Assembly: GCA_913061465.1 (NCBI GenBank) | Contig: CAJXSU010000002.1 | Span: forward strand, 1 to 64,000 | DNA from: an uncultured Flavobacterium sp. | GTDB lineage: Bacteria > Bacteroidota > Bacteroidia > Flavobacteriales > Flavobacteriaceae | Reading direction: 5' to 3' | DNA length: 64,000 bases | Shown here: positions 37,384-41,013 of the stretch, piece by piece | How the letters are laid out: the number at the start of each line of letters is the position of its first letter | Position numbering within the stretch: the stretch's first letter is position 1 | Program-made: the position numbers and the translations under genes | The notes under the pieces: model-generated | Seen by the model: only the letters and a program-made list of their open reading frames with translations | Told to the model about the DNA's origin: nothing | The model's database searches: none

Positions 37384-38232
37384 TTATAAGTGGTCCTCTA
37401 GTACAAACTGTATTTTATCACCAGTTATTTTTTGACTGACTCTAGCTATAGCTATTTCAGATAATTGAAGAATTCTTGGATAACCTCCTGTAACTTGGCA
37501 ATCTTGCATTAAAATAATGCATTTTCCAGACGGAGTGAGTTGGACTGTTCCTGGCAAGACTGCCGATGTAAGTATTGAAGATAAGTTATTTTCTAAAGAT
37601 TCTTTTAGTCGATATCCTACCCTATTATTATCATCTGATATTGAGAAAGGGATAAATAATTTACGCTGCTGTTCTTTATTGAGTTTGGAAAACTCTGGTC
37701 CTTTAAAACATGGTAAATACATGGTTGTAAAATGCTTTTCACTTACTCGAACTCTAGAGAAACTATTATCTGAATCCTTTTGGATTGGAAGAATAGGCAA
37801 TATGGCTCCTTTATCAAATTTTTGCTGAGTTATTCCCTCAAAATAACTTCGGCTACCATAAACTTTTTCAGTTTGAATTCCTCCTTGAACAGACAAATAA
37901 ACTCTAGCTCCATAAACTCGTTTACCAAATGATAAAACTGAATCTTTTTTAATAGGGTAAACTGATTGCATTTTTATTAATTTCCCATTTAATTTTGGAG
38001 AAAAATCAGCTCCAGTTAAACAGATATAGGTATCGGATGTAAATTTAAACTTACCTTGTCCAAAAGTAATTTCTATAAGGGCATCTTTATCATAATTTTT
38101 CAATAAGGCATTAGCCATTTTTGCAGCATAAGTATCCGCATATCCAGCTTGTGGAACACCCATCTTTGTATGACCAAACCGACCTTGGTCTTGAATAGAG
38201 CAATAAATTCCAGGATGTAAAATTACTATCAC
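37384..38232 (-). CDS. pxpC: 5-oxoprolinase subunit C (PxpC/KipA family)
   Basis: A 282-residue member of the biotin-dependent carboxyltransferase (KipA/AHS2) family. Marks are HPGIYCSIQDQGRFGHTKMGVPQAGYAD at the start, KGPEF, and NRVGYRL with MQDCQVTGGYPRI near the end. With PxpB and PxpA it forms the ATP-dependent 5-oxoprolinase that opens L-pyroglutamate to glutamate. It overlaps the pxpB gene by 4 bases and ends the transcript, converging on the sortilin-like gene after 23 nt. Confidence 0.88.
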   Translation of the reverse strand: MIVILHPGIYCSIQDQGRFGHTKMGVPQAGYADTYAAKMANALLKNYDKDALIEITFGQGKFKFTSDTYICLTGADFSPKLNGKLIKMQSVYPIKKDSVLSFGKRVYGARVYLSVQGGIQTEKVYGSRSYFEGITQQKFDKGAILPILPIQKDSDNSFSRVRVSEKHFTTMYLPCFKGPEFSKLNKEQQRKLFIPFSISDDNNRVGYRLKESLENNLSSILTSAVLPGTVQLTPSGKCIILMQDCQVTGGYPRILQLSEIAIARVSQKITGDKIQFVLEDHL

Positions 38233-38948
38233 AACAGTCTTTTTTTAATGATAAATTCTTGATTTATGACCTCTCTTTCTATTTGATAAAAAGTATGAAT
38301 ATCTACAGCAACAAATTGAATGCGATCACCTGATTTAGCAAAACAGGGATTTGTAGCCTTTATATTGAAAAAATTTAGAGGAGACTTTCCAATGATATTC
38401 CAACCCCCAGAACTATTTTGAGGATAAACTCCAGTCTGAGCACCACCTATACCCACAGATCCTTTGTCTACTCGAACTCTTGGGTTGGATTTCCTTGGAA
38501 CATGAAGGTTTTGATGCAGCCCTCCCATATAAAGAAATCCTGGTTGAAAACCAATAAAATAAACTATGTAATCTGTTTCTGTATGCAATCTAATAATATC
38601 TGTAACACTACATTTTTTTTTATTGGCAATTTCCTCTAGGTCAATCCCAAAAGAAGCATCATAACAAACAGGGATTTCCCATAAAAATTGATTTTGTTTA
38701 ATCACATAGGATGACGCTGTATATTTATTTTTAAGTTGACTAATAGTAAGTTCTTTATCTACAATTGGATTTTGATACCTAATAAGCAGAGAATTATAAG
38801 CAATAATTGTATCTAAAATAGCATCTATTTCTTTGACCTGTCCCTCAAAAGAAATAATATCTTGAATAATCTCTTGTGAAATGTCTGCAGGCCATTCTAC
38901 TAAAATTGCTGACCTTCCAAAAAGCTTATATGTGAGTTGAAACCTCAA
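38229..38948 (-). CDS. pxpB: 5-oxoprolinase subunit B (PxpB/KipI family)
   Basis: A 239-residue AHS1/KipI family protein with a cyclophilin-like core. Family marks are IPVCYDASFGIDLEEIA, YIVYFIGFQPGFLYMGGLHQNLHVPRKSNPRVRVDKGSVGIGGAQTGVYP and SGGWNIIGKSPLNFF, the last near residue 180. It partners PxpC. The start follows the pxpA stop without a gap and the stop overlaps pxpC by 4 bases. In Bacillus the same protein (KipI) also inhibits a sporulation kinase; no such target is expected here. Confidence 0.9.
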   Translation of the reverse strand: MRFQLTYKLFGRSAILVEWPADISQEIIQDIISFEGQVKEIDAILDTIIAYNSLLIRYQNPIVDKELTISQLKNKYTASSYVIKQNQFLWEIPVCYDASFGIDLEEIANKKKCSVTDIIRLHTETDYIVYFIGFQPGFLYMGGLHQNLHVPRKSNPRVRVDKGSVGIGGAQTGVYPQNSSGGWNIIGKSPLNFFNIKATNPCFAKSGDRIQFVAVDIHTFYQIEREVINQEFIIKKRLL

Positions 38949-39665
38949 TTACTTCGTATGGATATGTTTGTGTAAATACTGCAATATTTCTATGGCATTT
39001 TTAGTATCTCCGTGAACACAAAAAGTGGAGGCTTTAATCTCTTTTTCATTTAAGTTTACTGTAGTTACCAATTGTTTATCTGATATTTTTTGTACTTGCT
39101 TCAACACCTCATATTTGTCTACAATAAGTGAGTTGGATAACGTTCTAGAGACCAAACTCAAATCTTCATTATACCTTCTATCTGCAAAAGCTTCATAAAC
39201 AATTTCTAAACCGTTCTGGATTGCAACTTCTTCTATACTTGATTGATAGGGCACATATAATTTTACAGCTTCAAAAACATGTTGAATTGCAGCGATAACT
39301 ACCAAAGCCTTTTCACGATTTACAGCAATTAAATTATACAAAGCACCATGTGGTTTTATATGATGAATAGTTGCGTCTTGGAGCAGAACTCTATCTTTAA
39401 AAATAGTAAGTTGATTTTCTAAACTTTTTCGAAGTTCACTATTGGAAATATTCAAAACTTTACGTCCAAAATTTTGTCTATCAGGAAAGGATGGATGTGC
39501 TCCTATTTTTACTTTATGTTTAACTGCTAGCTGAATTACTTTATCTATAATTTCTATGGAACCTGCGTGTGCTCCACAAGAAATATTGCAGGAAGAAATA
39601 AGTGGCATTATGATATGCTCATTATGTAACCCTTCACCCAGATCGCAGTTAATGTCTATCATCAA
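38949..39665 (-). CDS. pxpA: 5-oxoprolinase subunit A (PxpA, LamB/YcsF family)
   Basis: A 238-residue LamB/YcsF family protein. Marks are IDINCDLGEG at the start, SCNISCGAHAGSIEII, IGAHPSFPDRQNFGR, HIKPHGALYN and EAFADRRYNEDLSLVSR. The histidines and aspartates in these blocks form the metal site of this polysaccharide-deacetylase-like fold. It is the third part of 5-oxoprolinase. Its start overlaps the NRAMP-like transporter gene by 4 bases, so transporter and enzyme are made together. Confidence 0.92.
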   Translation of the reverse strand: MMIDINCDLGEGLHNEHIIMPLISSCNISCGAHAGSIEIIDKVIQLAVKHKVKIGAHPSFPDRQNFGRKVLNISNSELRKSLENQLTIFKDRVLLQDATIHHIKPHGALYNLIAVNREKALVVIAAIQHVFEAVKLYVPYQSSIEEVAIQNGLEIVYEAFADRRYNEDLSLVSRTLSNSLIVDKYEVLKQVQKISDKQLVTTVNLNEKEIKASTFCVHGDTKNAIEILQYLHKHIHTK

Positions 39666-40894
39666 AAAATATTAAATTCAAAAACTTTATCTAGCCCTCT
39701 TAACCCAAGAAAAATAGTTATAATCAAAATAATAAATCCTAAAATATTTTGGAATTTAGAATTCACATATTTTCCTAAAACTACTTTTTTGTTTACCATC
39801 CATAGGAGTATTCCTGCTACTACCGGAAGTAAAACACCATTGGCAACCTGTGCAAATTTAATGATCTCTATAGGCTTAAGACCCAATGATGAAAATACCA
39901 CACCTAACAATAAGATTAGAAACCAGACAGCTCTAAATTGTTTTGATTTTAGACCAGATTCCCATCCAAAACATCCTCTGGCTACATAAGCTGCAGCTAA
40001 AGGTGCAGTAATTGCAGAGGTAATTCCTGCAGCAAATAATCCAATCCCTAAAAAATAACTTGCAAAATCTCCATATAAAGGTGCTAAACTCTTCGCTAAG
40101 TCTGCTGCACTTGAAATCTCTCCCAAACCTATAGAGGAGGCTGAAATAATGATAGCCATTGAAACAAGTCCTCCCAAAGCAATAGAGACTATTGTATCTT
40201 TTCTTACCTCTTTTAAATCTTTAGGATTATTCCATTTTTCTTTGACTAAAGATGCATGTAAAAACAAATTATAGGGTACAACAGTAGTTCCTACTAAACC
40301 TAGTATAGTTAATAAACTACCTTCTGGAAATGAAGGGATTAGAGCACCTTTCAAAATATTAAAAATATCAGGTTTTGTTAAAAAAGCTGTAATTAAAAAT
40401 GATAAACTCATTATTAATACAAGTATTACCAATACTCTTTCCAGAAATTTATAATTCCCTATGTATAATAATATAAAGGCAATGATTCCAACTACAAAAC
40501 TCAGTATATTGAGAGAATAGTTTCCCAAAACAATTCTAAATTCTCCTGTAATGGTTTCTAATCCTAATATACCTCCACTTATATTCCCTGCCTCATAGGA
40601 AGCGTTTCCTACAACTATGGCAGACAAAATAAGTAGTAGTATTAATTTGTTGATTATTGGATGTTTAATTTCAGATCTAATGACCTCAGATAAGCCCTTT
40701 TGAGATATGATTCCTAAACGAGAGGCCATTTCTTGTAACACAATGGTAGCTATAATAGACAATACCATAGCCCAAAGTAAATGAAAACCAAAATTAACGC
40801 CTGCTAATGTGCACAAGGTAACGGTCCCTGGACCTATAAATGCGGCAGCTACAAGAGTTCCTGGACCCGATTTCTTAAACCAATTTTTAATCAT
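39662..40894 (-). CDS. NRAMP-related transporter of the YcsG type, metal site absent
   Basis: A 410-residue NRAMP-fold protein with about eleven membrane helices. In metal-transporting NRAMPs helix 1 has DPGN and helix 6 has MPH. Here helix 1 reads FIGPGT (19-24), so aspartate becomes G21 and asparagine becomes T24. Helix 6 reads VVPYN (205-209), with V206 for methionine and Y208 for histidine. The metal ligands are therefore all gone. The gene is first in an operon with pxpABC, as ycsG is next to ycsF-kipIA in Bacillus subtilis. I infer that it imports 5-oxoproline or a related small amino acid. The standard label would be NRAMP divalent metal transporter. Confidence 0.83.
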   Translation of the reverse strand: MIKNWFKKSGPGTLVAAAFIGPGTVTLCTLAGVNFGFHLLWAMVLSIIATIVLQEMASRLGIISQKGLSEVIRSEIKHPIINKLILLLILSAIVVGNASYEAGNISGGILGLETITGEFRIVLGNYSLNILSFVVGIIAFILLYIGNYKFLERVLVILVLIMSLSFLITAFLTKPDIFNILKGALIPSFPEGSLLTILGLVGTTVVPYNLFLHASLVKEKWNNPKDLKEVRKDTIVSIALGGLVSMAIIISASSIGLGEISSAADLAKSLAPLYGDFASYFLGIGLFAAGITSAITAPLAAAYVARGCFGWESGLKSKQFRAVWFLILLLGVVFSSLGLKPIEIIKFAQVANGVLLPVVAGILLWMVNKKVVLGKYVNSKFQNILGFIILIITIFLGLRGLDKVFEFNIF

Positions 40895-40980: not shown

Positions 40981-41013
40981 AAAAAAAAGCATCCGAAATG
41001 GATGCTTTTTTTT
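40981..41013 (-). terminator. Terminator after pckA
   Basis: An A-tract with GCATCC (40989-40994), loop GAAAT, GGATGC (41000-41005) and eight T. On the minus strand it lies 17 nt past the pckA stop and before the NRAMP-like gene. The symmetric A and T tracts lengthen the stem. Confidence 0.9.

Follow-up and report, generated by a model that had tools for sequence, protein, structure and literature searches.

A GPGT-type relative of the NRAMP metal transporters at the head of a pxpABC operon is probably a 5-oxoproline importer

The 64,000-nucleotide stretch of DNA analysed here (the window) carries on its reverse strand a gene for an NRAMP-related protein, followed by pxpABC. We consider it quite likely that the gene product is a LeuT-fold protein which imports 5-oxoproline (pyroglutamate) and thereby supplies the PxpABC enzyme encoded in the same operon. 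An earlier reading of the sequence alone had proposed that the protein transports 5-oxoproline or a similar acid; given the position of the gene ahead of pxpABC and the surveys of family and phylum described below, this is the best-supported explanation. The GPGT clade, of which the protein is a member, is tied to two unrelated 5-oxoprolinase-type enzymes, in Bacteroidota and in haloarchaea. The features on which the analysis is based are as follows.

39662..40894, reverse strand: GPGT-type NRAMP-related transporter, 410 aa (open reading frame; PF01566; AlphaFold2 model; LeuT-fold match to DraNramp)
40823..40834, reverse strand: TM1 motif G21-P22-G23-T24, replacing DPGN (sequence; alignment to solved NRAMPs; model non-helical at 19-21)
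40583..40594, reverse strand: TM3 stretch E101-A-G-N104, in which N104 replaces the TM3 Glu of NRAMP and NRMT proteins (HMMER alignments; residue counts)
40271..40279, reverse strand: TM6 motif V206-P207-Y208, replacing MPH (sequence; alignment; model non-helical at 205-206)
39839..39841, reverse strand: TM10 residue N352, three residues past the conserved Q349 (residue counts)
38949..39665, reverse strand: pxpA, 5-oxoprolinase subunit A (LamB/YcsF; PF03746, 1.1e-74; NCBIfam NF003814 above cut-off)
38229..38948, reverse strand: pxpB, 5-oxoprolinase subunit B (PF02682, 1.3e-65; NCBIfam TIGR00370 above cut-off)
37384..38232, reverse strand: pxpC, 5-oxoprolinase subunit C, with a 4-base overlap with pxpB (PF02626, 6.6e-63; NCBIfam matches below cut-off)
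40981..41013, reverse strand: terminator-like hairpin separating pckA from the operon (site scan; 3 such sites, compared with a mean of 2.1 after shuffling, weak by itself)

The transporter gene and its operon

PxpABC is a 5-oxoprolinase by published tests, and its discovery is reportedly that of Niehaus in 2017. Such tests are also cited in PMC13274462. In the window, the PxpA, PxpB and PxpC domains (PF03746, PF02682 and PF02626) were present together, in three genes downstream of the transporter gene and on the same strand, and the transporter gene does lead the operon as had been proposed. A 4-base overlap with pxpA had also been described. The two genes overlap, but a length of 4 bases requires a TTG start at 39665; the ATG at 39662 is the likelier start of pxpA, and with it the stop and start codons would overlap as TGATG. 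The upstream neighbour of the operon, beyond the hairpin, is pckA. A scan for consensus promoters showed no excess (15 sites, compared with a mean of 17.6 in shuffled sequence). When the window's own assembly (84% complete) was searched, no other NRAMP-family match, no HyuB and no pyroglutamyl peptidase (PF01470) were found.

Loss of the metal site

PF01566 (Nramp) was the sole Pfam match of the protein at E<=0.001 (E=1.6e-89). The protein also scored 97.3 bits against NF037982, the NCBIfam model named 'Nramp family divalent metal transporter', for which the cut-off is 50, and plasmid homologues bear that name. The mislabelling as a metal transporter that the sequence-only reading had expected is therefore real.

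The same reading had held that the residues binding the metal were lost. When the protein was aligned by HMMER with the DraNramp and BfraNramp chains, GPGT (preceded by AAFI) and VPY (in the context GTTV-V206-P207-Y208-N) fell without gaps on DPGN and MPH, confirming the ligand positions, and N104 fell on the conserved TM3 Glu. Hence, other residues stand in place of the metal-site Asp, Asn, Met and His and, additionally, of the helix-3 Glu. The TM10 Gln is kept as Q349. The AlphaFold2 model (mean pLDDT 86.3) matched DraNramp with Z 47-48 over 375-385 residues, and its helices 1 and 6 were broken at residues 19-21 and 205-206, respectively. Since the model breaks both helices there and matches DraNramp, the motif residues of TM1 and TM6 occupy the substrate position of the LeuT fold.

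Compared with canonical Slc11/NRAMP proteins (DraNramp, BfraNramp), the window protein is alike in fold (Z 45-48) and in the TM10 Gln, but lacks DPGN, MPH and the TM3 Glu. It resembles the NRMT-type Mg2+ transporter EleNRMT in fold (Z 45, 26% identity) and TM10 Gln as well, but without the TM1 Asp and the TM3 Glu; it has GxxT in TM1 and TxxV in TM6, whereas the NRMT ion site was published as DxxG-TxxA/T (PMC8806188).

A protein of this kind might still import a metal (Mn2+ or Mg2+) through a rebuilt site and so supply the cofactor of the 5-oxoprolinase. Its PF01566 fold is that of metal transporters, Q349 remains, an acid is usually kept at position 101 of GPGT-type proteins (E101 in the window protein), and EcoDMT carrying NRMT residues was reported to move Mn still (PMC8806188); Mn phenotypes were reported for YcsG and MumT of similar operons (PMC10448178, PMC5050338). 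However, the D, N, M and H of DPGN/MPH and the TM3 Glu have all given way to uncharged residues, and transport by EleNRMT was reported as strongly compromised on loss of its TM1 Asp (PMC8806188). Moreover, the clade tracks two unrelated enzymes that have lactam chemistry in common. We therefore regard metal import as unlikely.

The replacements described for the Slc11 'orphan outgroup' of Cellier (PMC10606218, PMC9606685), that is, G for D and T for N in helix 1 and T for A, V for M and Y for H in helix 6 (PMC10606218), yield the residues found at G21, T24, T203, V206 and Y208 of the window protein. The helix-3 Tyr/Asn of that group has the same spacing as Y100/N104, although its numbering in print points to a different register. 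The terms 5-oxoproline, ycsG and pxp do not appear in either text. A Gly also replaces the TM1 Asp in the 'G-motif' Nramp-related groups of a 2026 preprint, which places B. subtilis MntG (YcsG) in 'G-motif 3' and calls most Nramp-related groups uncharacterised (PMC12873925). The literature searched contained no report that combined 5-oxoproline with the term 'Nramp-related', nor any linking an NRAMP with a hydantoinase.

Residues conserved among GPGT-type proteins

Among 30 loci (L001-L030, the first being the window gene), 29 had GPGT, with VVPY in 28 and VPPY in one; the thirtieth, L002, was a DPGN/MPH NRAMP. At 80 named genome loci, nearly all of which bear flavobacterial names and which give no view of other phyla, TM1 read GPGT in 78, GPGS in one, and had an unread residue before GPGT in one; TM6 read VPY in 79 and VLY in one. 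Because the motif recurs in both sets, we conclude from these comparisons that the GPGT/VPY variant is not a product of chance.

Residues were then counted in 97 rows, from which 6 duplicates were dropped; loci L053-L132 and L140-L169 did not enter these counts. Position 104 in TM3 was N in 91/91 distinct GPGT-type sequences and in 11/11 of the YcsG type, a subfamily treated below, while the TM3 Glu was present in 8/8 canonical NRAMP and 6/6 NRMT-type sequences. Position 352 in TM10 was also N in all 91 and all 11, but L in the 8 canonical sequences. Altogether, G21-P22-G23, N104, Y208 and N352 were common to the GPGT type (91/91) and the YcsG type (11/11), and the canonical NRAMPs had D, P, G, E, H and L at the same six places (8/8). 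No further group examined had all six residues; FGPGS-type proteins share G-P-G and N104 only. We take the six common residues to form a pocket for the lactam acid; they could also reflect shared ancestry.

Linkage to pxpA within the family

We surveyed 100 genomes of the same family, with 150 PF01566 matches among the matches listed. The score bands used below follow gaps in the scores, and the motif was checked on 28 GPGT loci besides the window gene (L003-L030). Among the matches listed, 59 of the 62 at 223-330 bits adjoined PxpA on the same strand. The corresponding figures, also among the matches listed, were 1/22 at 165-223 bits (a clade member, L051), 1/4 at 100-165 bits (a fragment), 0/61 below 100 bits and 0/1 above 330 bits. 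The three exceptions at 223-330 bits were an unlinked GPGT gene (genome G018), a gene at a contig end (G079) and an FGPGS-type, not GPGT, protein (G011). In all 61 linked pairs among the matches listed, the transporter gene was upstream of pxpA. At the 80 named loci, pxpA was directly downstream in 75, and in 72 of these pxpB and pxpC were found also. Thus the association of the GPGT/VPY variant with pxpABC, for which the sequence-only reading had proposed a survey, holds in the family, and it holds in the phylum as well (see below).

Some individual loci may be noted. The unlinked gene of G018 has as its neighbours the two small genes that also flank pxpA in G001 and G011 (L033, L040, L043), an arrangement that looks like a split ancestral locus. 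In genome G030, pxpABC occurs without an NRAMP-like gene, and the gene directly upstream of pxpA encodes a sodium:solute symporter (L044:6182-7831). A genome of the same genus has a GPGT-type fragment of ~130 residues with one internal TAA (G121:C1:115923-116315), likely a decayed copy. A scan of viral contigs gave no relative.

Co-occurrence with 5-oxoprolinases across Bacteroidota

The second survey covered 247 Bacteroidota genomes, the searches being centred on that phylum. A protein was called GPGT-type at a score of at least 218 bits, a cut placed at a gap in the scores; the fetched proteins above this score were all GPGT, and the fetched matches below 211 bits were all otherwise (L170-L244). 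Among the matches listed, 54 of the 247 genomes had a GPGT-type protein. All 54 encoded PxpA or HyuB, compared with 32 of the 193 others (p=3e-32, with related genomes counted as independent). At genus level, the enzyme was present in 26/26 GPGT-type genera and in at most 23/95 others (p=3e-13, phylogeny ignored). PxpA occurred in 51 genomes and HyuB in 35, but in none of the 86 enzyme genomes did the two occur together (P 0.00015, phylogeny ignored), the pattern one would expect if each enzyme substitutes for the other.

Among the matches listed, pxpA adjoined 29 of 33 close homologues (at least 460 bits) but 0 of 20 distant ones (270-345 bits); beside the latter, hyuB lay on the same strand within 7 kb in 10/20, and within 3 kb in 9/20. 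None of the 96 other NRAMP matches listed, which contained no YcsG-type proteins, was near PxpA or HyuB. The wider proposal that all G-motif NRAMP relatives follow 5-oxoprolinases was rejected, since neither PxpA nor HyuB lay near the GTGS, FGPGS and further types among the matches listed.

Ten near-duplicate rows were dropped before a tree was built from 67 rows, the neighbour labels of L171-L197 being taken from the phylum survey. The GPGT type fell on one side of a branch (100/85). The PxpA-linked clade had a support of 95/83, and the tree forced at least 2 changes of the HyuAB label.

Two counts from this survey stand against the 5-oxoproline reading. Transporter and enzyme were unlinked in 15 of the 54 GPGT-type genomes, although all 15 still carried one enzyme, and 32 of the 86 enzyme genomes had no GPGT-type protein.

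HyuAB as the alternative partner

HyuB is a member of the ATP-dependent oxoprolinase/hydantoinase family and is unrelated to PxpA. On haloarchaeal plasmids, homologues of the window protein were found, all annotated as metal transporters. In five of these plasmids (Haloferax, Haloarcula, Haladaptatus, Halorussus and Halocatena), hyuA abuts the homologue (47-51% identical) and is followed by hyuB, by annotation; Halobellus is a sixth with hyuA beside the homologue (HMMER). Haloferax mediterranei is among the species that have the gene together with hyuAB. The homologues of Natrononativus, Pseudoalteromonas and Qipengyuania adjoin neither 5-oxoprolinase-type enzyme. At one locus (L212:7270-8586), a gene for a TRAP large permease (DctM) lies directly upstream of an NRAMP-hyuA-hyuB run.

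The substrate class is supported most strongly by the way the enzyme partner changes while the carrier is kept; the choice of 5-oxoproline over other lactams rests on the pairing with PxpABC in the window's own subclade. The HyuA and HyuB proteins tested stayed below every NCBIfam cut-off, and the best PDB match of one of them was N-methylhydantoinase. The HyuAB family includes caprolactamase, N-methylhydantoinase and acetone carboxylase members, and the activity of HyuAB relatives on other lactams or hydantoins counts against 5-oxoproline as the substrate. It is accordingly conceivable, though improbable in our view, that the window protein has a related small molecule as its main substrate (hydantoin, a different lactam, glutamate or glutamine) and takes 5-oxoproline as a side substrate. 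Such a role would fit the gene annotated as Asp/Glu racemase that lies downstream of hyuB in two haloarchaea; the one protein tested matched arylmalonate decarboxylase best and Asp/Glu/hydantoin racemase second. It would also fit one GPGT subgroup (VAAFVGPGTVL; L203, L205) that has 2-oxoacid:ferredoxin oxidoreductase genes as neighbours and HyuB encoded at another place in the genome. Against it, the window subclade pairs with PxpABC, and no hydantoin-pathway gene was seen in the window operon.

The YcsG/PxpT subfamily

B. subtilis ycsG is frequently equated with this gene, and the sequence-only reading had drawn the parallel. It stands insofar as ycsG, too, is an NRAMP-like gene beside pxpA, but not as orthology: the window model was 21-22% identical to PDB 9A52 chain YCSG (chain A), compared with 59% for a Bacteroidota YcsG-type model. 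With 20-22% identity to YcsG-type proteins, the window protein belongs to a separate subfamily, and its assignment as a YcsG orthologue was rejected. YcsG, PxpT and PxpG (of B. subtilis, C. glutamicum and C. difficile) have in common with it the PF01566 fold, a gene beside pxpA in an operon with pxpABC, and the residues G21-P22-G23, N104, Y208 and N352. The YcsG type differs in TM1 (GPGF), TM6 (GGY) and TM10 (Q to G).

YcsG-type proteins were found in 7 of the 247 Bacteroidota genomes, with pxpA directly upstream in 6 of the 7. None of the 54 GPGT-type genomes had one, but this is not significant (P of no overlap 0.17). From plasmids, 9 of ~25 PxpT-like matches were sampled, and 8 of 601 pxpA records plus one further region. 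An NRAMP gene was beside pxpA in loci L245, L247, L248 and L260, but not in L246, L249, L250, L251 and L252. On plasmids, pxp operons whose genes are arranged as in B. subtilis (pxpA, NRAMP-like gene, 'putative hydro-lyase') carry the YcsG type, 20-22% identical to the window protein, and the one 'putative hydro-lyase' tested was a D-glutamate cyclase by Pfam. In L247, on the Klebsiella pneumoniae plasmid pKC141K, a divergent GntR regulator is followed by a YcsG-type gene, pxpA, the 'putative hydro-lyase', a fused PxpB/C-like gene and a biotin carboxylase gene, an order resembling that published for the A. baumannii mum operon.

Uptake of both substrates, 5-oxoproline (PMC13274462) and Mn (PMC10448178), has been claimed for this subfamily. 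C. glutamicum PxpT, 50% identical to YcsG, was reported to be required for growth on 5-oxoproline; the authors mention that it is of the NRAMP family and leave metal transport possible (PMC13274462). Overexpression of B. subtilis YcsG was reported to raise cellular Mn, and the protein was renamed MntG (PMC10448178). The A. baumannii operon with mumT has a similar gene order, and a mumT deletion reportedly lowered cellular Mn, an effect that was complemented (PMC5050338). The Mn rise reported for YcsG and MumT weighs against the 5-oxoproline reading of the window protein. The occurrence of the YcsG type beside pxpA with the same G-P-G, N104, Y208 and N352, and the growth requirement reported for its member PxpT, count in favour of that reading.

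Proposed mechanism and wider meaning

In same-fold amino-acid carriers such as AdiC and LeuT, glycine-rich stretches of TM1 bind the carboxylate of the substrate by backbone NH groups. The window protein is probably a 5-oxoproline importer, whose substrate, direction and coupling we infer. The backbone NH groups of the unwound G21-P22-G23 of TM1 would face the carboxylate, N104 (TM3), Y208 (TM6) and N352 (TM10) would hold the lactam, and uptake may be coupled to a cation, H+ or Na+. The 5-oxoproline brought in would be opened by PxpABC to yield glutamate.

The sequence cannot tell direction, and 5-oxoproline is reported to arise spontaneously from glutamate and glutamine (PMC13274462); export of the lactam formed inside the cell could be imagined on these grounds. 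It would be wasteful beside an enzyme that recycles the lactam, and PxpT of the YcsG type, though not an orthologue, was reported to be needed for growth on external 5-oxoproline (PMC13274462). We consider export very improbable.

Import of 5-oxoproline would provide the 'orphan outgroup' of a widely studied family of metal transporters with a function that can be tested, and correct the name that annotation pipelines give to such genes. It would also provide a sequence-based ground for re-examining the Mn claims made for NRAMP-like genes in pxp operons. GPGT and DPGN make a natural contrast pair through which the origin of a metal site in the LeuT fold could be studied. A broader picture is put forward tentatively. 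The nearest 'orphan' NRAMP relatives might be 5-oxoproline carriers, partnered in bacteria and archaea with whichever of the two unrelated 5-oxoprolinases the genome holds, and the distant YcsG subfamily might do the same job with the same G-P-G/N104/Y208/N352 pocket; metal transport by NRAMPs may then stem from organic-solute carriers, and the Mn roles of YcsG, and possibly of MumT, would be indirect.

Other NRAMP relatives with a G motif, of the FGPGS and GTGS types, occur two per locus beside a glucosamine-6-phosphate isomerase-like gene (L034, L035), in clusters that also hold weak DHDPS-like and epimerase-like genes. These relatives may also carry organic solutes.
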